Positions 18,276 to 35,144 of a DNA stretch of 40,489 nt are shown piece by piece. Location: contig NZ_ANAD01000059.1 in assembly GCF_000341245.1 (NCBI RefSeq), forward strand, positions 22,911 through 63,399, read 5' to 3'. The notes under the pieces were generated by a model. It saw only the letters and a list, made by a program, of their open reading frames with translations. It ran no database searches and was not told the origin of the DNA. The first letter of the stretch is position 1. The number at the start of each line of letters is the position of its first letter. The stretch is from Nocardiopsis halophila DSM 44494 (GTDB lineage Bacteria > Actinomycetota > Actinomycetes > Streptosporangiales > Streptosporangiaceae). Position numbers and translations under genes: made by a program.

Positions 18276-20414
18276 CTATACAGGCCTCTGGGGGTGCTCT
18301 GCCAAATCGGGAGGCGCGACCCGGACGTTGGACAGCGAATCGCGCTCGATGGCGCGCAGGTCGGCGGGGAGCCCCAGCCTCCTGAGCGCGTCCGGAAGCC
18401 GCGTGTCGTGGGTGAACACGACGATCTGCCGGTGCGCGCCGACCTCGGCCAGCACCCCGGCCAGACCCTCCACCGTCTCGGTGTCCATGGCCTGTACGGG
18501 GTCGTCCAGGAGCAGGAACCCGAAGGGGTTGCCGGCGGCCAGGGTGCGGGGCAGGCAGATGGACAGCGCGAGCGCCTGGAACTCGCCCTGGCTGAGCAGC
18601 CCGGGGGCGTTGCCCTCCCCCTCGGCGCCGTCGACCGCCACGTCCACGGCCACGCGCCGGCGGGCGCCCCGCCCGACCAGGCGCAGCGACTCCAGGTCGA
18701 TGTGGCGCTCCTGGCGCAGCCGCTGCCAGACGTGCTCGGTCTGCGCGGCCAGCGGGCGCAGCCGCTCGTCGCGGATCTCCTTGGCCGCGGCGGAGAACCA
18801 GTCCAGCGCCTCGTGGGCGGAGACCAGGAGCCCGTCGGCCTTGACCGCCGCGCGCGCGTCCTCCACCCAGGCGGCGAGCATCTCGGCGTACTCGCCCCAG
18901 TCCCCGGCGGGGTCGTCCAGGCGCCGCCCGGCGTCCTTGCGGGCGGCCAGGGCGGCCGAGCGCAGGCGCCGCCCGGTGCTCTCGATGTGCTCGGCCAGCT
19001 CCACCAGGTCGGTGATGCCGGCGCCCTCCTCCCACTCGCTCCAGATGCGCCCCAGATCGCTCTGTGCGGGCAGCCAGGACGGCTTGGGGGCCATGAGGAA
19101 CCGGGCCTGGTCCCGGGCGGCCTCGGCGCGCTCGTAGGCCGCCGAGGCGCTCTCGGCGACCGGCCGCAGCCGGTCGATCTCGGCCCGGGCGCGCCGCACC
19201 CACTCCTCGCCGAGGGCGCCCTCGGCGCCGCAGGCGGGGCAGGCGGAGTCGGCGGGGTGGCGCTCGTGGTGCTCCAGGGCGCGGGAGAGCAGGTCGGCCA
19301 CGCCGCGGGCGCGGTCGCCCTTGGTCCCGGCGGCCATCGCCAGCTCCATGGCGGCGCCGCGCAGCTCGTTGACCACGTCGGCGATCAGGGAGCGCTCGGG
19401 CACCGACAGCCGCCGCAGGCGGCGCAGCACCCGCTCGGCCTCGGGGTCGGCGGGGCCGTCGTCGGCGGCCAGCGCGGCCAGCCGGTCCAGGTCGGGGGCG
19501 CCGGGGCCCTGCTCGCCGAGGAGCTCCACGGCCCGCGCGGCGCGCGGGTCGGTGGCCTCGCCGAGCCGCGCCAGCAGGTGGTCCAGGTCGCGGCGCGGGC
19601 GGTCGCGCAGCCGGGCCAGCCGCGAACAGGTCTTGGCCAGGCCCCGCTCGGCGTCGGCCAGTCCGGTCAGGCCCAGGACCGCGGTGAGGGTGTCGTAGAG
19701 CTCGGCGGCCCGGCCGTTCACGGCCCGGCCGAGCTCGTCGTAGGAGAGGAAGGGGCGGTAGCGGTCCAGGTCGGGGCCCCAGCCCAGGGAGCTGAGCGGG
19801 CCGGAGGAGCCGTCGGGCAGCTCGACGCGGCCGCGGGCGGAGCGGACGCTGTCGCCGTCCCACACCCGGGTGGCGCGCAGGGGGCCGTCGGCCCCGGGGG
19901 CGGCCAGCGTGACGGTGACCTCGGTGCGCTCGGGGTGGTGCAGGTTGCGCCAGCCGTCCCGCCAGGCGGTGGGCATGGCGTCCCAGCGCAGGTTGCGGCC
20001 GGTGAGGGCGGCCTCGGCTGCCTCGGCGAAGCTGGACTTGCCCGACCCGTTGCGGCCGACCACCACGGTCAGCCCGGGGCCGGGCGTCAGCTCCAGCGCG
20101 GCGGGGCTGCCGATTCCCCGGAAGCCCTGCACCCCGATGCGGGAGAGGAAGACCGGGCGCGGCACGGCCCCGGGGTCGCGCTGCGGCTCGGGGGCGCCGT
20201 GCAGGACCTGGGAGGGCTCGGGGGCGGGGCCGCCCCCGGCGAGGGCCTCCAGCGCCTCTTCGCCGCTCAGGGCCGCCAGCACCCAGCCGCGGGCCCCGTT
20301 GTCGAGGGGGGAGCGGGCGAGCAGGCCCAGCACCGCGGCGGCGGTGGCCGCCCCGTCGGGCGGCGGCGGTTCCTCGGCGAACGTCTCAGCGCCGGTGGTC
20401 AGCGTCGTCACCAC
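18276..20414 (-). CDS. Rad50/SbcC-like ATPase with a zinc-hook motif
   Basis: This protein of about 712 residues is an ABC/SMC-superfamily ATPase. Walker A is GRNGSGKSS near residue 120, preceded by VQGFRGIGSP. A CPACG motif near residue 391, between two helical arms, resembles the Rad50 zinc hook. The signature LLSQGEFQALALSI (about 600), Walker B FLLLDDPVQAMD and FTHDTRLPDALRR follow. The arms are much shorter than in SbcC, and there is no neighbouring Mre11/SbcD-type nuclease. An N-terminal domain of about 80 residues is of unknown type. Start is one of two adjacent GTG codons (20414, 20411) after GGAGG. It lies downstream of the JetABC-like operon on the same strand, separated by an IS scar. 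Its function is not known; DNA repair or defence is plausible. Confidence 0.82.
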   Translation of the reverse strand: MVTTLTTGAETFAEEPPPPDGAATAAAVLGLLARSPLDNGARGWVLAALSGEEALEALAGGGPAPEPSQVLHGAPEPQRDPGAVPRPVFLSRIGVQGFRGIGSPAALELTPGPGLTVVVGRNGSGKSSFAEAAEAALTGRNLRWDAMPTAWRDGWRNLHHPERTEVTVTLAAPGADGPLRATRVWDGDSVRSARGRVELPDGSSGPLSSLGWGPDLDRYRPFLSYDELGRAVNGRAAELYDTLTAVLGLTGLADAERGLAKTCSRLARLRDRPRRDLDHLLARLGEATDPRAARAVELLGEQGPGAPDLDRLAALAADDGPADPEAERVLRRLRRLSVPERSLIADVVNELRGAAMELAMAAGTKGDRARGVADLLSRALEHHERHPADSACPACGAEGALGEEWVRRARAEIDRLRPVAESASAAYERAEAARDQARFLMAPKPSWLPAQSDLGRIWSEWEEGAGITDLVELAEHIESTGRRLRSAALAARKDAGRRLDDPAGDWGEYAEMLAAWVEDARAAVKADGLLVSAHEALDWFSAAAKEIRDERLRPLAAQTEHVWQRLRQERHIDLESLRLVGRGARRRVAVDVAVDGAEGEGNAPGLLSQGEFQALALSICLPRTLAAGNPFGFLLLDDPVQAMDTETVEGLAGVLAEVGAHRQIVVFTHDTRLPDALRRLGLPADLRAIERDSLSNVRVAPPDLAEHPQRPV

Positions 20415-20679
20415 ACCCGCCTCCGTCGTCGGTTCCGGTACGAAGGGACAGTATGCGCGTTCGGGGCGTACCGGGTCAGCCCGGGGGCCGCCCGTCCCGC
20501 CCGGTCCGGGCCCGGCAGGCGGGTCCCGGGGAGGGGCACGGGACGACGGGCCCGGAGACACGGGGCCGGAGCATACCGAGCACGCCCGGCGTGTGCGGCC
20601 GGAACGGCGCGAGCCCGGACGGAGCCGGACGTCCGCACTCCGACGGCCTCCGAGGACCGCCGGGTGGCGATGGCCCCCG

Positions 20680-20760
20680 GGCGTGGTGCTCGCCTTTGCC
20701 GACGTCCAGGCCGAGGTAGACGCCGATGTCGTCGGTGGGGGGTCGGCCATGGGCGCTCCT
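20680..20760 (-). pseudogene. IS110-family transposase fragment (N-terminal end)
   Basis: The frame reads DDIGVYLGLDVGKGEHHA, which is the start of the DEDD catalytic domain of IS110 transposases. After HHA the match stops, so only about 18 residues survive. The 100 bases upstream (20760-20870) resemble in my memory the non-coding left end of such elements, where the bridge RNA is encoded, but this was not searched. The scar occupies the place where a jetD gene would be expected. Confidence 0.7.
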
Positions 20761-21151: not shown

Positions 21152-24100
21152 TCAGGCCCCGACCATGCGTCTGCGGGTGCCGTCCCAGGTGAAGTGCAGG
21201 GTGGCGATGCCCGGTTCGGACGGGTCGCGCAGGCACTCGTAGACGTGCAGGCTCGGCACGCTGGCGAAGCAGCCCCAGACCCGCTCCGAGGTGAGCACGA
21301 AGTCCAGGTCCAGCTCCACCAGCAGGCCCAGCAGGCGGCCGTGGGTGGGCTCGTCGACCTTGGCGAAGGCGTCGTCGAGCAGGATGAGCCGCGGCGCGTG
21401 CGGCGCGCTCTTGGCCAGCGAGTCGTACTGGGCCGCCGCCGCGGCGAACAGCACCAGGTAGGCCACCACCCGCTGCTCGCCCTGGCTGAGCCCGGTGCGG
21501 TGGCTCAGCCGCCGCTCCCGGCCCGGGCGGGCGGCGTCGGTCACCCGCACCTCGAAAGAGAACCACGACCGGTAGTCCAGCGCCTGGCGGAGCTGGGCGC
21601 CGCCGGTGGCGCTGGGGTCCAGCCGGCGGATGGACTCGATGCAGCGGCGCAGCGCGTCCCGCAGCCGGGTGGTCTCCACCCGGCTGCGCCGGTGCGCGGG
21701 CCGGGCCAGCAGCGGCACCACCGCGCGCACGTCCTCGTCGGCGTCGGGGGCCAGGTCCCAGCCGATGCGCACGCCGATGCCCTGGGAGGTGGTCACCCCC
21801 TCCAGCACCCCGTTCATGGCCGCCACCAGCTCGCGGGCCTCGTCGATGCGGCGGGCCAGGTGCTCGGCCAGCTCGCCGAGCAGGTGGCGCTCGTAGGCCT
21901 CCTCCTCGCGCAGCAGGGCCGCCTCCTCGGCCTCGGCGCGCATCCGCTCCAGCCGGGCGGCGTACGCGCTCACCCCGTCGGCTCCGGAGTCGTCGTGCAC
22001 GGTGACCCGCTTGACCCCGTGCACCTCGGCGACAGAGGTGCGGGCGGCGGCGTACCGGCCCAGCGCCTCGTGCAGCTCCTCGCGGCGGCGCAGCAGCCCG
22101 CTGTCGTCGACCTCCTCGGCGCCGGCGCCGCCCTCCAGGCCCTTCTCCAGCGCCGCGACCAGCTCCTCCAGCGCGGCCAGCCGCTCGTCCTCGCCGGCCC
22201 CGGGCTCGGCGCCGCCCTCCAGGGCCGGGGCGGCCTCCTCCAGCCCGGCGGCGGCGAGCAGGTCGGTGTCGGGGGCGCCGTCGGCGCCGCACAGCGCGGC
22301 GCGCAGCCGGTCCCCGGCGGCCAGCGCCCGCTCGGCCTGCCCGGCGCGCTCGGCCGCGGCGGCGGCGAGCCGGGTCTCGGCGGCGATGCGCTCGTCGCGG
22401 GCGCGCTGGGCGGCGCGCTCCAGGTCCGGCACGCGGGCGGCGGCCTCGTCCATCCGGCCGCGCACCTCGTCCACGGCGGTGCCCAGGCGGTCGGGGTCGG
22501 CGGCGCGTGCCCGGTCGGTGAGCTCGATGTCCCGGCGCACGGTGATCATGTCGCCGATGGCGGCGGTGCGGGCGTCCTCGGCCACCACCCGGTCGGCGCG
22601 GGCCTGGCGCCAGTCCTCCACCGCGACGCGGTGCTCCTCCAGCAGCGCGGCCAGGTCGCGCAGGTCGCGCAGGGCGGCGGCGGTGCGCACCCGCAGGCCC
22701 TCCACGGCGGCTCCGGTGGCGGCGGCCTCCCCGGGGTCGGTGGGCAGCGACGCGGCCTCGGCCTCCTCCCGCACACGGGTGCGCAGGCCCAGGGCGGTGC
22801 CGCGGGCGTCCTCGGCGGCCTCCTGGGCGCGGTCCCGTTCCTGCAGGGCGGCGTCCAGCCAGGACCGGGCGGCCTCCAGGGCGGCGCGGGCGCGGTCCGG
22901 CCCGGCGGGGCCGGGCAGCTCGCGGGCGGCGGCCACCAGGCGGTCCTGGGCGCGCTCGGTCTCGGCGCGGCGCTCGCCCGCCTCGGCGAGCAGCGCCTCG
23001 GCGATGTCGATGCGCCGGTCGACGTTGGCCAGGCGGCGGTCGCGGGCGGCGGCCCGGGCGTCGGCGCCGATCCGCTCGGGGGCGACCGGCAGCTGCCCGG
23101 CAGCGCCGGAGGCCACCCCCAGGCGCCAGCGGCCGTCCACGGAGACGGCGCAGGCGGCCGGGGGCCGCTCGCCGTCGCGCAGCCGGCGGTGCCGGGGCGC
23201 GGGGTCGCCGGCCGGCCCGCCCTCGGCGGGCAGCAGCGCGACCGAGGACAGCAGCGCCTCGACCCGGTCCCGGGGCACGCCGAACTCCTCGGCGGCGCCC
23301 TCGGCGACCCGGAGCACGTCGAGCAGGCCGGCGCCGTCGGCGGGGCGGCCGGGCACCAGCACGGCCCCGTCCAGGGCGCCGTCCCCGACGCCGTGGGCGG
23401 TGCCGTCGGGGGCCAGGCGGGCGTCGAGCAGCCCGGAGGCGGTCAGGGCGGCCTCCAGGCCGACCTTCTCGGCGTCGCTGAGCCCGTCGGCGAAGTCGAC
23501 CAGCAGGTACAGCGGGGTGCCGTCCGGGCCGGCGTCGGCGGCCCGGCGCTTGCGCTCGGAGAGCTCGTCCAGCTCGGTGACGAGCTCGCGCTCCTCGCCC
23601 AGGGAGGTGTCCCGGCGCGCGCGCAGCTCCTTGAGCAAGTCGTCGACGAGGGCGTGGGCGGCCTGCTCGACCCGGGCGCACAGGTCGGCGTCGACCGCCT
23701 CTCCCCCGCCGGGCGGCAGGTGGACGAGCTCCTCCAGGGCCGAGGCGGCCCCGGCGGCCTCGGGGAAGTCCTCGGCGAGGGCCTGGGCCCAGGCGCGGAC
23801 CCGCTCGGCGTAGTGCCCCCCGGCCTCGCCCAGCGCCCGGACGGCGTCGGCCTCGCGGGCGCGGGCGCGCTCCAGGGCGGCGTCGGCGGCCTCCGCCTCG
23901 CCCTCCAGCGCCTCGGCGCGCCGCTCGGCGGCGTCCCGGCGGGCGGCCGCGGCGCCGAGCGCGGTGACGGCGGCGGCCCGCTCGGCGGCATGGGCCTCGG
24001 CCCGGCAGAGCCGGTCGTGCAGGTCGGCCAGGCCGGAGCGGAGCGCCTCCAGGTCGATGCCGGGAACCGGGTCGCGCTCCACGGCGCGCTCCAGACCCTC

Positions 24101-25657
24101 GAAGTCGACGTGGGTGGTGGACTCGCGGGGGGCGAGCACGGTGTGCACGGGGCGGGGCACCCGGCCGAGCAGGGCGGGGTCCATGCCGGCGGCACGGGCC
24201 GACTCGGCGGCCTCGGCGTGCAGCTCCTCCAGGCCCTCCAGGCTGCGCTCGACGGCGCCGGTCCCGGTGGCGAGCGCGGCCACCGCCCGCTCTTCGCGGG
24301 TGAGCGCGTACCCGGCGGCGGTCCACGCGGCCTCGGCGGCCCGGATGTAGGCGGCGACGGCGGCGTCGCGCGCCTGCAGCTCGCCCTCGGCGGGGGCGGG
24401 CTCGGCCCGGCCGGCGGCGGTGAGCGTGGCGGCGTCGGAGGCGGCGGTGTCCCGGGTGCGCCGGCTGCGGTCGCGCTCCTCCTGGGCTGCGGCCTCCTCG
24501 GTGACCAGCCGGTCCAGCTCCTCCTCCAGCCGGGCGGCCTCGGCGTCCCGGCGCTGGTAGTCCTCCAGCAGGCCGCGCACCCGGGCGGTGCGGCGGCCGA
24601 GCACCCCGTGCAGGTAGGAGCGGTAGCCCTCGAGGAAGGTCCGGACGTGCTCGGCGGCCCCGGTGAGCGCGGTGCGGCGGTCGCGGGCCTCCTCCAGGTC
24701 GGCGACGTTGCGGGCGACCTGGTCGAGCACGGCCTCGTCCATCGGCGGCAGGGCCTCGGCCAGCACCGAGACCAGCTCGCCGGCCTCCAGGCGCTCCCCG
24801 ATGGTGGGGCGGCGCAGCCGGTAGAGCAGGTGGACCAGGTTGCGGTAGCGGACCGGGTCCTCCAGGCCGAACAGGTCGCGCATGACGCGGGCCCGGTAGG
24901 CCGGGGCGGAGTCGTAGCAGTCGTCGGCGCCGAGCTCGGCGCGCAGCCGCTCGACGGGGACGGGGCGGCCGTCGCGGACCAGCTCCAGGTCCTCGCCGAC
25001 GGTGCGGCCGGTGACGAAGTACAGCCGGCGGGGCTCCTCCCCGGGCACGGCGGTGACGGCGGCGCCCAGGGTGAGGCGGTCGGGGGAGCCGGGGCCCTCG
25101 GGTTCCCCGGCGCCGTCGGTCTCGCCCCGGGCGGCGTCCCGGGCGAACTCGATCCACAGGTAGCCCACACGCGCGGCGGGGGCGCCGTCGGGGGCACCGG
25201 GGCCGGCGTCGCCGGGGGCGGCATCAGTGCCGTCGGCGCCGTCGGCACTGTCGGCGGCGTCGGCCTCCTCCGCGCGCTCCCCGCGCTCCTCGCCGTCCTC
25301 GTCGTCGTCCAGGACCGGGGCGCTGCGCCCGTCCTGCATCAGCCAGCGCAGGCTGGTGCGGCCGGTGCCGGTGGTGTCGAGCCGCCGGGCGTCGCCGTCC
25401 AGCAGGAACGGCAGCAGCATCTCCAGGGCCTTGGACTTGCCGGCGCCGTTGCGTCCGCGCAGCAGCAGCCGCCCGTCGGCGAAGGAGAAGACCTGGTCGT
25501 CGTAGTGCCAGACGTTGTGGATGCCGGCCCGGCGCAGCCGGTGGCGCCGGCGGGCGGAGCGGCCGACGACCGGCAGCGGTGCGGTCACCTGCTCGTCGGC
25601 GGACACCTGCTGCTCGGCGGGGCCGGCCGGGTCCGGGGCCGTGCCGGTGTCGCTCAT
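21152..25657 (-). CDS. jetC: JetC-like SMC/MukB-type ATPase (TIGR02680 family)
   Basis: This 1501-residue SMC-like ATPase is of the Wadjet JetC type. It opens with HNVWHYDDQVFSFADGRLLL and Walker A GRNGAGKS (residues 68-75), followed by LEMLLPFLLDGDARRLDTTG. About 1200 residues of Ala/Glu/Arg-rich coiled coil with a hinge-like interruption follow. The C-terminal head has LSQGEQRVVAYLVLF near residue 1390 and Walker B LILLDDAFAKVDE near 1425. In this family, JetC with JetA (kleisin) and JetB extrudes DNA loops and JetD cuts plasmids. Its ATG directly abuts the jetB stop. No motif is missing, so the motor looks intact even though jetD is absent. Residual ATPase/loop-extrusion activity is an inference. 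Confidence 0.9.
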   Translation of the reverse strand: MSDTGTAPDPAGPAEQQVSADEQVTAPLPVVGRSARRRHRLRRAGIHNVWHYDDQVFSFADGRLLLRGRNGAGKSKALEMLLPFLLDGDARRLDTTGTGRTSLRWLMQDGRSAPVLDDDEDGEERGERAEEADAADSADGADGTDAAPGDAGPGAPDGAPAARVGYLWIEFARDAARGETDGAGEPEGPGSPDRLTLGAAVTAVPGEEPRRLYFVTGRTVGEDLELVRDGRPVPVERLRAELGADDCYDSAPAYRARVMRDLFGLEDPVRYRNLVHLLYRLRRPTIGERLEAGELVSVLAEALPPMDEAVLDQVARNVADLEEARDRRTALTGAAEHVRTFLEGYRSYLHGVLGRRTARVRGLLEDYQRRDAEAARLEEELDRLVTEEAAAQEERDRSRRTRDTAASDAATLTAAGRAEPAPAEGELQARDAAVAAYIRAAEAAWTAAGYALTREERAVAALATGTGAVERSLEGLEELHAEAAESARAAGMDPALLGRVPRPVHTVLAPRESTTHVDFEGLERAVERDPVPGIDLEALRSGLADLHDRLCRAEAHAAERAAAVTALGAAAARRDAAERRAEALEGEAEAADAALERARAREADAVRALGEAGGHYAERVRAWAQALAEDFPEAAGAASALEELVHLPPGGGEAVDADLCARVEQAAHALVDDLLKELRARRDTSLGEERELVTELDELSERKRRAADAGPDGTPLYLLVDFADGLSDAEKVGLEAALTASGLLDARLAPDGTAHGVGDGALDGAVLVPGRPADGAGLLDVLRVAEGAAEEFGVPRDRVEALLSSVALLPAEGGPAGDPAPRHRRLRDGERPPAACAVSVDGRWRLGVASGAAGQLPVAPERIGADARAAARDRRLANVDRRIDIAEALLAEAGERRAETERAQDRLVAAARELPGPAGPDRARAALEAARSWLDAALQERDRAQEAAEDARGTALGLRTRVREEAEAASLPTDPGEAAATGAAVEGLRVRTAAALRDLRDLAALLEEHRVAVEDWRQARADRVVAEDARTAAIGDMITVRRDIELTDRARAADPDRLGTAVDEVRGRMDEAAARVPDLERAAQRARDERIAAETRLAAAAAERAGQAERALAAGDRLRAALCGADGAPDTDLLAAAGLEEAAPALEGGAEPGAGEDERLAALEELVAALEKGLEGGAGAEEVDDSGLLRRREELHEALGRYAAARTSVAEVHGVKRVTVHDDSGADGVSAYAARLERMRAEAEEAALLREEEAYERHLLGELAEHLARRIDEARELVAAMNGVLEGVTTSQGIGVRIGWDLAPDADEDVRAVVPLLARPAHRRSRVETTRLRDALRRCIESIRRLDPSATGGAQLRQALDYRSWFSFEVRVTDAARPGRERRLSHRTGLSQGEQRVVAYLVLFAAAAAQYDSLAKSAPHAPRLILLDDAFAKVDEPTHGRLLGLLVELDLDFVLTSERVWGCFASVPSLHVYECLRDPSEPGIATLHFTWDGTRRRMVGA

Positions 25658-26860
25658 CTACCGCCCTCCGCTTTCGTCGGTGCCGCTGGGTGCGCCCGTC
25701 CCCGCCGCGGCCGGAACCGGGCGATCCGGGCCATTGTCCCGGATCCGCGCCCCCTGCGGGCCGTACCGGGCGGCGGCCGCGAGCAGTTCCCACCCCTGTC
25801 GGCCGCCGCCGTCCGGCGCCCGCAGCAGCCCGGCCCCGCACAGCCGCCGCAGCACCCGGGCGCGCAGGTCGCGGCGGCCCGGCCCGTCCGGCAGCGCCGC
25901 CGCCAGCTCCTCCTCCAGCACCGCCTCGGGGACCTCGGCGGCGCGGGCCGGGGTGGCCGGCGGGCGCACCCGCCCGGCCAGGCCGCGCACCAGCAGAAGC
26001 GCGGCGCGGCCCTCCGCGCCCTCGCCGGGCAGCAGGGCCTCGTCCCGGCCGTCGGGCGTGATCAGCGCCACACCCTCGGCGCGGACCTCGGTCTCGCACC
26101 CCAGGAGCGCGCCGAGCTCGGCCGCGGCGCGCCACTGGTGGCGGGCGAGTCGGCCGCGCTGGCGCTCGGGCAGGTCCTCCCGGTAGACGACGGCCTGCTC
26201 GGCCAGCAGGCGGCGGAGCGCGACCTCGCCGTCGGCGTCGGCCGCGGGGTCGGGGTCGCGGGCGGACTCCAGGAACTCCTCGGGGCCCGAGGCCGAGTGC
26301 GGCGGGTGGGCGAGCGCCCGGCGGGCGGCCTCGGCGTCGGCGTCCAGGGCGGCGGCGGGGCGGCTCCCGGCGGCGTAGTCGGCCAGGGCGCCCTCCTCCC
26401 GTTCGGCGAGCACCCCCCAGGAGGCCAGGTGGCGCAGGGCGGCGGCGAAGGCGCGGCGCTCGGCGGCGCGCGCCTCGGGGTCGTGCGCCAGCCCGGCCTC
26501 GGCGGCGGCGGCGCGCACCCGGTCGGCCACCTCGCCGGTGCCGGTGGAGGCGGCGCACTCGGGCAGGGCGGCCAGGGTGAGGGCCAGGTAGGTGTAGGCG
26601 CGCGGGGTGAGTGGGGCGCCGCTCGCCCGGCGCGGCGGCGGGGCGTCCTGCGGCGGGGCGGCCTTGACCAGCCGGGCGTGGTCGGCCTCGACGACCAGCT
26701 CGTAGCCCAGGACACGGCGAAAGCGCTGCACCAGCCAGTCGGAGTGGGCGCGGACGAGCGCCAGGTCGCGGGGGTGGGTGCGGGCGGACAGGACCGGGGT
26801 GCGCAGCAGCCGCCGGGCGGCCGCCTGCCGCTCCCCGGTGAGCGCGATGTCGTCGATCAT
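25658..26860 (-). CDS. jetB: JetB-like protein (DUF2398, TIGR02678, MukE-like)
   Basis: This 400-residue protein starts at ATG 26860 (MIDDIALTGERQ). It is the winged-helix, MukE-like partner that joins the kleisin and the JetC heads in Wadjet complexes. Typical segments are ARRLLRTPVLSARTHPRDLALVR near the N-terminus, LTPRAYTYLALTLAAL, and a later ALRHLASWGVLAEREEG helix-turn-helix-like region. Length is normal for the family and there is no frameshift. It overlaps the truncated jetA by four bases (ATGA) and abuts jetC with no gap, so the three are one transcript. The family assignment is from remembered pattern. Confidence 0.85.
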   Translation of the reverse strand: MIDDIALTGERQAAARRLLRTPVLSARTHPRDLALVRAHSDWLVQRFRRVLGYELVVEADHARLVKAAPPQDAPPPRRASGAPLTPRAYTYLALTLAALPECAASTGTGEVADRVRAAAAEAGLAHDPEARAAERRAFAAALRHLASWGVLAEREEGALADYAAGSRPAAALDADAEAARRALAHPPHSASGPEEFLESARDPDPAADADGEVALRRLLAEQAVVYREDLPERQRGRLARHQWRAAAELGALLGCETEVRAEGVALITPDGRDEALLPGEGAEGRAALLLVRGLAGRVRPPATPARAAEVPEAVLEEELAAALPDGPGRRDLRARVLRRLCGAGLLRAPDGGGRQGWELLAAAARYGPQGARIRDNGPDRPVPAAAGTGAPSGTDESGGR

Positions 26861-27558
26861 TCCGGGGGCTCCTGCTCGGGACCGTCGTGGGGCCCGTCGC
26901 CTGCCGGGGCGTCGGCCGGGGTGTCGTCCGGGACCCGGGTCGTGCGGTAGTCGGTGACCTGGAGCCACAGCCCGTCCAGGTGCAGCTCGCCGTCGGGGGA
27001 GGCCAGGGTCAGGCGCGCGTCGGGGGCGGGGCCGGCGTGCAGGCGGACCTCCAGCTCCATGTCTCCGGCGGTGACGGGCGCGCGCTCGGGGTCGCCCGAC
27101 CCCAGGGCGGCGGTGAGCAGCTCCATGAGCACGCCCGCGGCGGCGGGGTCGAGCGCGATGCGGGCGCCGCCTTCGGTGCGCTCGGCCAGGGCGCGGTGCA
27201 CCTCGGCGGCGGCGGCGCGGCGCCAGTGCGCGCGGGACTCGGCGGCGGCGTGCAGCGCGGCCCGCTGGGCGGAGTGGTCGGCGGCGGGCTCGGTGGGCAC
27301 GGGGCCCGCGGGGCGCGGCGGCGCGGCGTGCGCGCGGGGGGCGTTCCACCAGCTGCCGGTGGCCGGGGCCGTCTCGTCGCCGGCGCCGCCGAGGCGGCGC
27401 GCGGGCCAGGCGGCGAAGGCCGCGGCGTAGAGCGCGTCGGCGCGCGCGGTATCGGCGGAGTCGAACCACCGGGCCAGCCGCAGGAGGGCGGCGCGCCCGT
27501 GCCGGCCGGTCGCCCGCCCGCTCCCGGCCGCCTCGTCCACTGCTGAGTCACCCATCAC
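26857..27558 (-). CDS. jetA: N-terminally truncated JetA-like protein (DUF2397, TIGR02677)
   Basis: This 233-residue protein matches only the C-terminal half of the JetA/kleisin family, whose members are usually about 500 residues. The conserved LLRLARWFDSADTARADALY and WWNAPRAHAAPP segments and a GELHLDGLWLQVTD ending are present. The N-terminal winged-helix part, which should bind the JetC neck, is absent, and no frame upstream restores it. Start is GTG 27558 (or ATG 27555) after a weak GAAG. The C-terminal tail is a Pro/Asp/Gly-rich extension. It may be a decayed gene or a real short form; the frame itself is open and clean. Confidence 0.78.
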   Translation of the reverse strand: MMGDSAVDEAAGSGRATGRHGRAALLRLARWFDSADTARADALYAAAFAAWPARRLGGAGDETAPATGSWWNAPRAHAAPPRPAGPVPTEPAADHSAQRAALHAAAESRAHWRRAAAAEVHRALAERTEGGARIALDPAAAGVLMELLTAALGSGDPERAPVTAGDMELEVRLHAGPAPDARLTLASPDGELHLDGLWLQVTDYRTTRVPDDTPADAPAGDGPHDGPEQEPPE

Positions 27559-30648: not shown

Positions 30649-30900
30649 TCAGTGGCGGTAGCCGTCACCCTCGTCGACGACGGTCTGGACCGGCCCGTTG
30701 GTGCAGTCCTCGGTGGTCTGCGGCGACAGGACCGGCACCGCGGCGCCGAGCACGCCGACGTTGGCGTTGCAGACCTGCACGGGCAGAACCTGCAGGTTCT
30801 GGTTGAACGTCTGGTCGGTCGCCTGAGCCGGGGCCGCCATGAGGACGGCGCCGGCCGCGGCGCCGACGAGCATGCCGGCGACGGTGGCCTTACGCAGCAT
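30649..30900 (-). CDS. small secreted two-Cys protein, array member 5 (type A)
   Basis: This 83-residue protein has a signal peptide (MLRKATVAGMLVGAAAGAVL, cut after APAQA). The mature part is about 57 residues, with QVCNANVGVLGAAVPVLSPQ and then DCTNGP; the two Cys are 21 residues apart. It is the last of five tandem paralogs and has a distinctive tail ending in DEGDGYRH. It groups with members 1 and 3 by the GVLGAAVP segment. A ribosome site (GGGAG) precedes the ATG at 30900. Function unknown; see the findings for the array as a whole. Confidence 0.85.
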   Translation of the reverse strand: MLRKATVAGMLVGAAAGAVLMAAPAQATDQTFNQNLQVLPVQVCNANVGVLGAAVPVLSPQTTEDCTNGPVQTVVDEGDGYRH

Positions 30901-30910
30901 CTGCGTCTCC

Positions 30911-31144
30911 CTACTTGACGAGCGTGGAGATCGCGCCGTTGGTGCAGGCGCCCGTGGACTGGGGCGACAGCACCGGGACGGCGAAGCCGATCGCGGCACC
31001 GACGTTGGCGTTGCAGACCTGCGCGGGCACGCCCTGCAGGTTGGAGTTGAAGTCCTGGTCGGTGGCCTGGGCCGGGGCGGCCATCAGGACGGCGCCGGCC
31101 GCGGCGCCGACGAGCGCGCCGGCGACGGTGAACTTGCGGATCAT
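30911..31144 (-). CDS. small secreted two-Cys protein, array member 4 (type B)
   Basis: This 77-residue secreted protein has a cleavable signal peptide ending in APAQA. The mature region of about 50 residues is TDQDFNSNLQGVPAQVCNAN, then GAAIGFAVPVLSPQSTG and CTNGAISTLV. It is of type B, marked by AQVCNAN, GAAIG and the GACTNGAIS end, and is nearly identical to member 2. It lies 10 bases upstream of member 5 and 15 bases downstream of member 3. Both Cys are kept and a disulfide is likely. Role not known. Confidence 0.87.
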   Translation of the reverse strand: MIRKFTVAGALVGAAAGAVLMAAPAQATDQDFNSNLQGVPAQVCNANVGAAIGFAVPVLSPQSTGACTNGAISTLVK

Positions 31145-31159
31145 GGGTGATTCCTCTCG

Positions 31160-31390
31160 CTACTCGACGATCGTCGAGATGGGGCCGTTGGTGCAGTCGC
31201 CGGTGGTCTGCGGGGACAGGATCGGCACCGCGGCGCCGAGCACGCCGATGTTGGCGTTGCAGACCTGGACCGGGACGACCTGCAGGTTCTGGTTGAACGT
31301 CTGGTCGGTCGCCTGGGCGGGAGCGGCCATCATGAGCGCGCCCATGGCGGCGCCGGCGACCAGGCCGGCGGCGGAGATCTTGCGGATCAT
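31160..31390 (-). CDS. small secreted two-Cys protein, array member 3 (type A)
   Basis: This 76-residue protein has the MIRKISAAGLVAGAAMGALM signal peptide and a mature part of about 50 residues. Its type A features are TFNQNLQVVPVQVCNANIG, GVLGAAVP and GDCTNGPIST. The signal peptide is almost the same as in member 2, which suggests recent duplication or gene conversion, while the mature part follows type A. It lies between two type B genes with spacers of 14-15 bases, so the genes are surely co-transcribed. Confidence 0.87.
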   Translation of the reverse strand: MIRKISAAGLVAGAAMGALMMAAPAQATDQTFNQNLQVVPVQVCNANIGVLGAAVPILSPQTTGDCTNGPISTIVE

Positions 31391-31404
31391 CAGGTCGTTC
31401 CTTC

Positions 31405-31635
31405 CTAGACGAGCGAGGAGATGGCGCCGTTGGTGCAGGCACCGGTGGTCTGCGGCGAGACGACCGGCACGGCCGCGCCGATGGCGGCACCCACGTTGGC
31501 GTTGCAGACCTGCGCGGGGATGCCCTGCAGGTTGGAGTTGAACTCCTGGTCGGTCGCCTGGGCCGGAGCGGCCATCAGGAAAGCGCCCATCGCGGCACCC
31601 GCCACCAGGCCGGCGGCGGAGATCTTGCGGATCAT
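31405..31635 (-). CDS. small secreted two-Cys protein, array member 2 (type B)
   Basis: This 76-residue protein starts at ATG 31635 (MIRKISAAGLVAGAAMGAFL); the frame extends upstream but only this start gives the shared signal peptide. The mature part is of type B: EFNSNLQGIPAQVCNAN, GAAIGAAVPVVSPQTTG, then ACTNGAISSLV. It is separated from member 1 by 60 bases, the largest spacer in the array, which could hold a processing or internal start site. Otherwise it mirrors member 4. Confidence 0.87.
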   Translation of the reverse strand: MIRKISAAGLVAGAAMGAFLMAAPAQATDQEFNSNLQGIPAQVCNANVGAAIGAAVPVVSPQTTGACTNGAISSLV

Positions 31636-31695
31636 CGGATTTCCCCTCTGGAAAAGTATGTCTGGAATCGTCACCCGTTATCGGGTGCTGCCGCT

Positions 31696-31923
31696 CTAGC
31701 CGACCTTCGTCAGGATCGGGCCGTTGGTGCAGTCACCGGTGGTCTGCGGGGACAGGACCGGGACGGCCGCGCCGAGCACACCGACGTTGGCGTTGCAGAC
31801 CTGGATCGGCACGCCCTGCAGGTTGGAGTTGTACTCCTGGTCGGTGGCCTGGGCCGGGGCGGCCATCAGAACGGCACCCATGGCGGCGCCGGCGAGCAGG
31901 CCGGCGGCGGTCAGCTTCTTCAT
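31696..31923 (-). CDS. small secreted two-Cys protein, array member 1
   Basis: This 75-residue protein is the first of the array, behind a consensus promoter and a GGGGGAA ribosome site. It has a Lys-Lys signal peptide (MKKLTAAGLLAGAAMGAVLM) cut after APAQA. The mature part mixes the two types: the NSNLQGVPIQ start of type B, and the GVLGAAVPVLSPQTTGDCTNGP of type A. Two Cys are 21 residues apart. The hydrophobic middle and paired Cys recall chaplins of Streptomyces but the sequence is not a chaplin. Its family is not known to me. Confidence 0.87.
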   Translation of the reverse strand: MKKLTAAGLLAGAAMGAVLMAAPAQATDQEYNSNLQGVPIQVCNANVGVLGAAVPVLSPQTTGDCTNGPILTKVG

Positions 31924-31998
31924 TGCGATTCCCCCGGAAGATTCCCTAAGGAGGCGGATAGATAAGGGCGCGCCGTGCGGACGCTCCCCCGCGGTGGA

Positions 31999-32036
31999 CG
32001 TGAGTAATCATGGGACTACGCAGCGTATTTTGTCAA
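31999..32036 (-). promoter_or_regulatory. promoter of the small secreted-protein array
   Basis: On the minus strand a perfect -35 TTGACA (32031-32036), an 18-base spacer and a -10 CATGAT (32007-32012) predict a start near 32000. This leaves a leader of about 76 bases. The surroundings are AT-rich compared with the rest of the window. Confidence 0.7.
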
Positions 32037-32629
32037 CGCCGAAACGGCGGATTCAAAATGTCCTCTTCACCCTTCTTCGACCATGGATCCGCAATACGGA
32101 GGGAATGGGGAGAGAAAACGCGGCACCATTTCCGGCATTCCGGGTGCCCGGTCGGGGGCGTCGCGTCGGCGGAGGCGGGGGCGCGGCGCCGGACCGGGCG
32201 GTCGGGACGCCCGGCGCGGGGGCGCCAGGCGGCGCGCGGGAGGATTCGGACCGATGCGGGTCCGGGCACACGGCTGCTGCACCCGGCCACGGGCGCGCTG
32301 CGGGTTTCGGTCCTACCCATATCCGGCCCCGCCGACGGCGGACGGTCACCGGACCGGGGTGATGGGGGCACGAAGTGCTCCGCTCCGACACGCCGGGGGT
32401 GCCGGAGGCGCGGAAGAGTCGGAGAGCAGGTGGGCCCCTAACGGGGTCGGAAGGCGGGTCCGCACGACGGATCCGGCGGACCACAGGCGGGCGGGAGCAC
32501 GCACGAATCGCGTGCCGCTGCTCCCACTGCACCGCTCGAACGCCTGAGGGCGGGTCCAGCGTACACAGCTCCGCACTCGGACGCCCGCCGTTCCGGAGCT
32601 TTCCGGGGTCCCCCGTTCCGCTCCGCCGC
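32037..32629. other. 593-base stretch without a recognised gene
   Basis: Several open frames exist, as expected at this GC content, but none has a convincing start, ribosome site or protein-like composition. Nothing else was recognised apart from the AT-rich edge near the promoter. Confidence 0.5.
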
Positions 32630-32880: not shown

Positions 32881-32954
32881 CCTTGCCGTTGATCTCGGGG
32901 AAGTCGGGGTAATACCGGCGAGTATTCCCCCGACTTCCCCGAGATCAACAAGGG
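32881..32954. repeat. long palindromic intergenic element, copy 2
   Basis: Arms of 27 bases (32889-32915 and 32922-32948) match in 26 of 27 positions around a 6-base loop, and a CCTTG/CAAGG extension continues past a 2-base bulge. It shares the exact 20-base core of copy 1 (16648-16667) and the same palindromic plan but a different loop. Here it is not next to the end of a recognised gene. The rest of 32840-33188 shows nothing else. Confidence 0.85.
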
Positions 32955-33188
32955 TGCCGATGCGGGCGGCAGGCAGCGCCCCCGGGAGCGGCCGGGGCCA
33001 GCAGAGTCCAACCACGCCAGCGGACACGACCGGCCTCCCGCTCGACCCGTTCGACCCGTTGTTCGGCCGTCCTCGTGGAGGAGCCGTTCATGTGGAGGAA
33101 CCCCCTCGGGGATGCCCTCGACGTGGTCCGACTCGGCACGTCCGCGGATCAGCAGGACCGGGGGCACGTCGCGATTCCGCGCTTTGCA

Positions 33189-33245
33189 CAGCAAAAATTA
33201 CACCCAGGCTGCAACTTTCGCCGACCCAGGGTGTAACCTTTGCTG
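33189..33245 (+). promoter_or_regulatory. abiE operator-promoter with inverted repeat
   Basis: CAGCAAAAATTACACCC (33189-33205) and its near complement at 33229-33245 match in 15 of 17 positions, 23 bases apart. The right half covers a possible -10 (TAACCT, 33234-33239), and the ATG of the antitoxin lies two bases further on. AbiEi-type antitoxins are known to repress their operon by binding such repeats. No ribosome site is seen, so the mRNA may be leaderless. Confidence 0.7.
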
Positions 33246-33246
33246 C

Positions 33247-34245
33247 ATGAGACGCGAGGATGCGGCGAAGGTTCTCGCCGAGTACGCCACCGACCAGTGG
33301 GGTCTCGTGACCGCCGCGCAGGCCAAGCAGGCCGGTGTGAGTGGGGTTACGCTGCTGCGCCTGGTCGAGGCGGAGGTGGTGGAGAGGGTCGGCCGGGGCG
33401 TGTACCTGGTTCTGGGGGCCGCGCCCCCGCAGCACCTGGACGTCAAGGTGGCATGGCTGCGGCTGGACCCGGCACGCCCGGCTTGGGAGCGCACTTCCCC
33501 CGGGGACTATGGCGGAATCGTCTCGCATGCCTCGGCCTGCCTGGTTCACGACCTGGGCGATATCCCGACAGGGGAGGTCGAACTCAGCGTGGAACGGCGC
33601 CGCTCGACCAGGGAGAGCGGAGTTCGGCTCCGGGTCCGTCCGGTGGCTGCCGAGGATGTGACCGTCATCGACGGCCTTCCCGTGACCCGGGCCGAGCGCA
33701 CGATCGCCGACCTGCTGGAGGCCCGCACCGACGGCGGACACGTGGGCGGTGTGATCGCCGACGCCGAGCAGCGCGGGCTGGTGGACCCGGAGGCCCTGGC
33801 CGAGCGGGTCCGGCATTTCGCCACGACCTACGGCCTCTCGCGGCACACCAGGGGGCAGGCCTTCATCGAGCACCTGGTGGAACAGGCGGGGCGGACCCTG
33901 CACGCCGAGGAGGTCGCACGGGCTGCAGGGGCCGGGTATGCCCTGGCCCTGGCGGAAGCGCTGTCCACGATGCCCCTGCCCCCGGCCGAACTGCGCTCGA
34001 TGAGCAAGGTCGCCGAACAGATGGGCAGCCTGCGCAGGAGCCTCTCTCCGCCCGCGACCGCTGCGGGGATGCCGTCCCTCCCCCAGATCGGCCGACTCGC
34101 CCTTCCGAATCCGGCGCCCTCGATGCGCGAAACGCAGGCCGCGCTCGCACGTGCTGCGCTCAGAGCCCACCTACCCGACTCCTTCGGGGCATACCGATCC
34201 GGAGGAGGGCCCTCGGACGAGGACGACTCAGAGGAAGAATCGTGA
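33247..34245 (+). CDS. abiEi: type IV toxin-antitoxin antitoxin, AbiEi family
   Basis: This 332-residue protein has the AbiEi plan. An N-terminal winged-helix domain (GLVTAAQAKQAGVSGVTLLR, RVGRGVYLV at about residues 18-60) binds the operator. The antitoxin domain follows, with IVSHASACLVHDLGD and GLPVTRAERTIADLLEAR, both typical of this family. The tail of about 60 residues is Pro/Ser-rich and ends acidic (DEDDSEEES). Start is ATG 33247 (MRREDAAKV). It overlaps the toxin gene by four bases (GTGA). Confidence 0.9.
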   Translation: MRREDAAKVLAEYATDQWGLVTAAQAKQAGVSGVTLLRLVEAEVVERVGRGVYLVLGAAPPQHLDVKVAWLRLDPARPAWERTSPGDYGGIVSHASACLVHDLGDIPTGEVELSVERRRSTRESGVRLRVRPVAAEDVTVIDGLPVTRAERTIADLLEARTDGGHVGGVIADAEQRGLVDPEALAERVRHFATTYGLSRHTRGQAFIEHLVEQAGRTLHAEEVARAAGAGYALALAEALSTMPLPPAELRSMSKVAEQMGSLRRSLSPPATAAGMPSLPQIGRLALPNPAPSMRETQAALARAALRAHLPDSFGAYRSGGGPSDEDDSEEES

Positions 34246-35144
34246 GCTACAAGACACCGCGGGCCTTCGAGCAGGCGATCAATACACACGCCCGGCGCGC
34301 GGCCAGCCAGAACGGCCTGAAGACCGGCGACCTGGTCACCGGCTACTACTTCCACCGCCTGGTCGCCCGAGTGTTCCATGCCGACCCCCATGGGTGGCTG
34401 CTCAAGGGCGGGCAGGCGCTCCTGGTCCGCTACGCGGCCCAGGCGCGGCTGAGCCGTGATATCGACCTGCAGCGCCTCGGGGCCGAAGACCCCGAGGCGG
34501 CGCTGGAGACGCTGTGCGCGGCCGCGGCGACCGACCTGGGCGACTACCTCTGCTACGAACCGACCAAGCGCCAGATGCTCGCCGAGCTGACCGGCGGGGC
34601 CAAGCAGACCTTCGATGTGCTGATCGGCGTCCGCAGGGTCGCCTCGGTGAGCATCGATATCGTTACTGGACAGACCCCCACCCAGAACCCGGTCGAAACC
34701 GCTCTGGAGCCGCTCATGGAGCTGGAGTGGCCCCAGGACTGGCCGACGGTGCGGCTCTACCCGCTCGCCGACCACATCGCGGACAAGGTCTGCGCGATGT
34801 ACACCCGGTTCCAAGGCCGGGCCTCCAGCCGAATCCGCGACCTGCCCGACCTGCTGCTCATCTGCCAGAAGGACGAGGTAGAAGGCCCGGCGGCCCGGGC
34901 GGCGCTGGACAGCGAGCGCGAGCGGCGCCGCTCACTCGGCCACGACCTCGATCTCCCCGACCGCTTCGTGCTCCCCGATTCCAGCTGGGAGAAGCTCTTT
35001 CCCAAAGCCGCAGCGAACATCAGCGGGCTGAAGGGGTGCGCGACCCTGGACGAGGCCCGGCCCCTGGCCGACGCCTTCCTCACCCCGCTGCTGGCCGGAC
35101 CGCTGGAGGCGGTGTGGATGCCTTCGGATCGGGCCTGGCGTTAG
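34242..35144 (+). CDS. abiEii: nucleotidyltransferase toxin, AbiEii/AbiGii family
   Basis: This 300-residue toxin of the AbiE phage-abortive system starts at GTG 34242. The nucleotidyltransferase motif is GGQALLVRYAAQARLSRDIDL near residues 46-66, with the Gly-Gly and the Asp-x-Asp metal site. The second family motif is LADHIADKVCAMYTRF (about residues 183-198), followed by SRIRDLPDLLLI. All catalytic residues visible are kept, so it should be active. Family members add nucleotides to RNA targets such as tRNA. It is translationally coupled to the antitoxin. Confidence 0.9.
   Translation: MSYKTPRAFEQAINTHARRAASQNGLKTGDLVTGYYFHRLVARVFHADPHGWLLKGGQALLVRYAAQARLSRDIDLQRLGAEDPEAALETLCAAAATDLGDYLCYEPTKRQMLAELTGGAKQTFDVLIGVRRVASVSIDIVTGQTPTQNPVETALEPLMELEWPQDWPTVRLYPLADHIADKVCAMYTRFQGRASSRIRDLPDLLLICQKDEVEGPAARAALDSERERRRSLGHDLDLPDRFVLPDSSWEKLFPKAAANISGLKGCATLDEARPLADAFLTPLLAGPLEAVWMPSDRAWR

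Follow-up and report, generated by a model that had tools for sequence, protein, structure and literature searches.

The stretch of DNA analysed here (the window, 40,489 nucleotides of Nocardiopsis halophila DSM 44494) contains, at positions 30649-31923, five head-to-tail ORFs on the minus strand, of 75, 76, 76, 77, and 83 codons. A purine-rich ribosome-binding site precedes every one of them, confirming the five tandem genes for small secreted proteins of 75-83 codons reported in the initial annotation, and the Sec leader ending in APAQA that it had described is present on all five proteins. The mature chains are 49-56 aa long and contain two Cys; the spacing of 21 residues given earlier is correct for g1, g3, and g5 but is 22 in g2 and g4. 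The proteins share a hydrophobic VPVQVC...VLGAAVP segment, with an overall GRAVY of only −0.21 to 0.35. No further genes of this kind were found in the genome beyond the members of the array. In order of transcription, the features are:

31990-32041, minus strand: predicted promoter block before g1, GGCGTTGACAAAA-N17/18-ATGATT, then GTCCACCGCG
32031-32036, minus strand: predicted −35 element, TTGACA
32007-32012, minus strand: predicted −10 element, CATGAT
31990-31999, minus strand: GTCCACCGCG
31696-31923, minus strand: g1 (first type, MKK leader), 75 aa; A-type middle and C-terminus, B-like mature N-part
31636-31695, minus strand: g1-g2 spacer, 60 nt; the remaining array spacers are 10-15 nt
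31405-31635, minus strand: g2, 76 aa; B-type (GAAIG ... ACTNGA)
31160-31390, minus strand: g3, 76 aa; A-type (GVLG ... DCTNGP)
30911-31144, minus strand: g4, 77 aa; B-type
30649-30900, minus strand: g5 (last type), 83 aa; A-type, acidic/His tail DEGDGYRH

An orthologue of g1 is present in every close relative, and because comparison with the N. endophytica, N. chromatogenes, and N. suaedae orthologues gives a dN/dS of 0.09-0.32 for the array genes, the five genes are real and constrained, under purifying selection and behind a conserved promoter. The promoter block is near-invariant in the arrays of Nocardiopsis, Streptomonospora, and Marinitenerispora, where most arrays have TTTCGGCGTTGACAAAA-N17/18-ATGATTGC-N3/4-AGTCCACCGCG before gene 1; slight deviations occur in Streptomonospora and elsewhere. 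We interpret the block as a sigma-70-like promoter that has a conserved stretch after the −10 element, and since it is conserved, expression of the array is likely. The pattern CGTTGACAAAAN{14,24}ATGATT has a single exact match in the genome, the array promoter itself, and judged by exact pattern the same promoter does not occur at other genes. A BldN-type promoter was also considered, but its consensus did not appear to fit. The g1-g2 spacer contains a hairpin, CACCCGATAACGGGTG, in the window and in close relatives; it is not general among arrays, and a conserved hairpin or attenuator at this position was rejected. No Rfam family, whether riboswitch or other RNA leader, matched the array or its leader region. 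The mir-1993 Rfam matches fall on an unrelated palindrome; an inverted repeat at 32888-32949 (28-nt arms, 96% complementary, 6-nt loop) draws false microRNA Rfam matches on both strands. That g1-g5 form one transcription unit of small chaplin-like proteins is part of the overall explanation we propose, in which, taken as a whole, we have moderate confidence.

The array is widespread. A scan of 84,980 named genomes recovered 45 array loci, nearly all in Nocardiopsis, Streptomonospora, and Marinitenerispora. Every one of the 6 genomes in the GTDB genus has the array, and so, if weak and leader-only matches are included, do 26 of the 101 genomes of the GTDB family; in a class-wide sample of 395 genomes, full-length members were confined to this same family. 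No array match was found on plasmids. In many species of the three genera, the locus adjoins a 2-oxoacid oxidoreductase gene. In the window, an AbiEi/AbiEii pair (type IV toxin-antitoxin or abortive infection; 33112-35144, plus strand) lies between the array and this usual neighbor. Two further minus-strand features of the window are a candidate Wadjet type II system at 21152-27558, comprising JetC2 (1501 aa, PADLOC E 0, TIGR02680) and JetB2, and, adjoining it, an SMC/RecF-like ATPase at 18279-20684 that partially matches several defence ATPases. Other genera of the family contain more distant proteins whose core resembles FQ(V/I)(V/I)PIQxC...CVNG (L049, L051, and L052, from genomes G029, G006, and G024), and proteins of this type possibly point to a wider superfamily.

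The initial annotation divided the mature sequences into two alternating classes. This division holds for the middle and C-terminal segments, to which the A-B-A-B-A order is confined, but not for the mature N-part, where g1 is B-like (NSNLQG) and is joined to an A-type C-part, nor for the leaders. At the DNA level, the leaders pair g2 with g3 (90%) and g4 with g5 (86%), while the mature N-parts pair g2 with g4 (94%) and g3 with g5 (90%). The five genes are thus mosaics in which leaders and mature parts pair differently, and a simple [B-A][B-A] pair duplication does not cleanly account for their origin. Nor is the alternation alone beyond chance, because 1 in 10 of the possible orders of three A and two B genes is perfectly alternating.

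From the alternation it had been argued that A and B are partner subunits. If they formed an obligate two-partner coat in which A and B alternate in a heteropolymer, gene order would mirror assembly, and the presence of two sequence classes in the window is what one would expect, as is the restriction of B genes to inner positions in those Nocardiopsidaceae arrays that have the longer AAIG-type middle. The order, however, varies among relatives: by middle motif it is AAABBA in N. chromatogenes and AABA in N. endophytica, the closest relatives, ABBA in two Streptomonospora and in N. ansamitocini, ABAA in S. mangrovi, and ABA in N. potens, and the N. suaedae array, which lies on two contigs, likewise fails to alternate. 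The AAIG motif itself is missing from most Nocardiopsis arrays, and the mosaic classes and the ease of chance alternation count against this reading as well, which we regard as quite improbable. The A-B-A-B-A order was seen only in the Nocardiopsis halophila genome of the window, and two adjacent B genes in N. chromatogenes have identical mature parts. Alternation as a conserved rule is rejected by the orders found in relatives, and the order in the window is most likely a local accident of gene turnover and conversion, not the product of selection for alternation.

What is conserved is one locus of ordered first, inner, and last paralogues, usually four genes. These three labels change 21 times on a 169-member tree, compared with at least 66 changes in 200 within-array shuffles, and in the core Nocardiopsis species the first genes, the second genes, and the rest form separate clades. 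N-x-N is preceded by F in 38 of 43 first genes and 37 of 43 last genes and by Y in 66 of 83 inner genes. The tail after the second Cys has a median of 23 residues in last genes, versus 10, and in other arrays, too, the last gene mostly ends in a longer polar tail, as g5 does. Spacers after the first gene usually measure 50-77 nt, those further along mostly 8-21 nt. The array is an old, ordered set across Nocardiopsis and its relatives, and its ordered paralogues leave room for a multi-subunit coat.

Chaplins are coat proteins of the aerial filaments in Streptomyces, and the proteins of the array resemble them in several respects. Like the short chaplins (ChpD-H of Streptomyces; PF03777 ChpA-C), they are small and Sec-exported, with a hydrophobic core, two Cys, a similar leader, and several paralogues per genome, and around the first Cys the two groups align without gaps over PVxVC-x3-VxV(L/I)G. 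Three GN motifs spaced 12-13 residues apart belong to the definition of chaplins (PMC7766987, PMC13251363). The mature core of 168 of 169 array members contains none, and since these motifs are missing we call the array proteins chaplin-like and do not file them as chaplins. All 169 members have exactly two Cys, separated in every member except one by 21-24 residues, versus about 13 in the Nocardiopsis-type short chaplins found here. The array proteins also differ in a C-terminal SPQTTGDC(T/V)NGP block, in their organization as a tandem operon of ordered paralogues, and in falling below Pfam detection: no Pfam or NCBIfam model matches them, and neither the 5 window proteins nor 88 mature members reach the PF03777 cut-off.

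Could such proteins have arrived at a chaplin-like way of working by convergence, as small amphipathic coat proteins that share no ancestry with chaplins? The missing PF03777 match and GN motifs would fit this, as would the different C-terminal half (SPQTTGDCTNG) and a weak hhalign comparison of the mature parts (probability 17% over 16 columns, with 1 of 200 column shuffles as good). At genome scale, however, the next-best matches of the array model are single-domain chaplins in ten Nocardiopsidaceae genomes, N. halophila included, and in one genome of the wider family, a link that is aided by similar leaders; these matches start in the leader and end shortly after the first Cys, and within Nocardiopsidaceae the next-best matches are mostly short chaplins. 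In the weaker direct comparison, single chaplins scored with the array model are equalled by 8 to 86 of 2000 shuffles. The two groups are joined by an intermediate that is a single protein (L181, genome G102), whose best match among array members has E 4e-7 and among chaplins E 6.5e-8, and which scores 18.3 bits against PF03777 (cut-off 21). Its mature part alone scores above 2000 of 2000 shuffles with the array model and above 1999 of 2000 with the chaplin model; it is 54% identical over 22 residues to one array member. Together with the gap-free alignment at the first Cys, this makes convergence unlikely in our judgment, and a distant common ancestry of array proteins and chaplins likely, though short of proof. 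The earlier statement that no chaplin motif is present thus stands as far as GN motifs are concerned but missed this weak, probable homology.

N. halophila has chaplins of its own elsewhere in the genome, at the locus of a four-domain LPVTG protein and at two other places, among them a short chaplin with a GRAVY of 0.21. The four-domain protein (L187, G000:C138:28000-31500) combines its chaplin domains with a long acidic Gly/Asp stretch and an LPVTG sortase signal, and multi-domain chaplins like it occur in many related genomes. Such long chaplins (ChpA-C) have a core probably related to that of the array proteins and are probable coat partners in the same genome; the array proteins differ in being single-domain and in having no sortase signal. 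Chaplin-like genes in N. dassonvillei were mentioned earlier, when they were found alongside Kitasatospora chaplins (PMC4255298), and in the open-access literature we found no paper describing the array.

Other secreted systems were also compared. Rodlins RdlA and RdlB are paired secreted proteins of the rodlet layer (PMC7766987), and obvious rodlins are reported only in streptomycetes (PMC4255298); a rodlin reading of the array found no support. CwpA and CwpB of Actinoplanes missouriensis are hydrophobic surface proteins that were judged not to be chaplins, their GN motifs being missing (PMC13251363). Like the array proteins they lack GN motifs and come from an actinomycete other than Streptomyces, but they are sortase-anchored cell wall proteins and form no tandem array of small proteins. 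If the array instead encoded secreted antimicrobial or signalling peptides, such as multi-peptide bacteriocins, then small size, two Cys, a Gly-rich hydrophobic segment, and paralogue arrays would all be in keeping, and there are trivial Pfam Bacteriocin_IIc matches in the leader (E 1.6-3.1). The leader is, however, of the Sec AxA and not the double-glycine type, genes for immunity, modification, or transport were not seen adjoining the array, and synteny and purifying selection extend over the whole family. The bacteriocin reading in particular found no support, and we consider antimicrobial or signalling peptides a highly improbable identity for these proteins.

The array represents a conserved and so far undescribed branch of chaplin-like proteins, encoded in an ordered operon. 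The suggestion that it belongs to an unfamiliar family and may be an undescribed surface coat agrees with the lack of a Pfam or NCBIfam model and with its conservation and secretion, and a coat is plausible. Each protein would be exported by Sec and its leader removed at AxA, after which an intramolecular disulfide may close a loop of 21-22 residues around a hydrophobic core able to form strands (VPVQVC...VGVLGAAVP). AlphaFold2 placed strands at 11-15 and 22-27, around the first Cys, but not confidently (mean pLDDT 48.6), and no solved structures were found for array proteins. Several paralogues would be made together and, on aerial hyphae or spores, would join into common polymers, probably beta-rich and amyloid-like, beside the true chaplins of the same genome. 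We infer the disulfide, polymerisation, location, and function by analogy, and most likely the array provides secreted, beta-forming proteins with a disulfide bond that assemble together at the surface of hyphae or spores. The ancestral plan would usually have had four genes, of distinct first, inner, and last types, and the clade of the window would have reshuffled it by duplication and gene conversion, arriving at A-B-A-B-A by turnover. This entire account, a chaplin-like, co-assembling coat array reshuffled in the window's clade, strikes us as fairly probable. More tentatively, and with considerable doubt, one may picture a second Nocardiopsidaceae coat separate from the chaplins, usually a heteropolymer of four parts in which the first, inner, and last paralogues would each have a fixed role (for example, as starter, body, and charged outer or tip subunit) and would be made together from one strictly conserved promoter.

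What is understood of chaplin-based coats comes almost entirely from Streptomyces. An array that is syntenic and unannotated across a spore-forming actinomycete family offers a compact target for asking if coats of the chaplin type have diversified past the proteins with GN motifs and if the ordered paralogues serve as subunits distinct from one another, and its weak link to PF03777 shows how far the superfamily may extend beyond current models.
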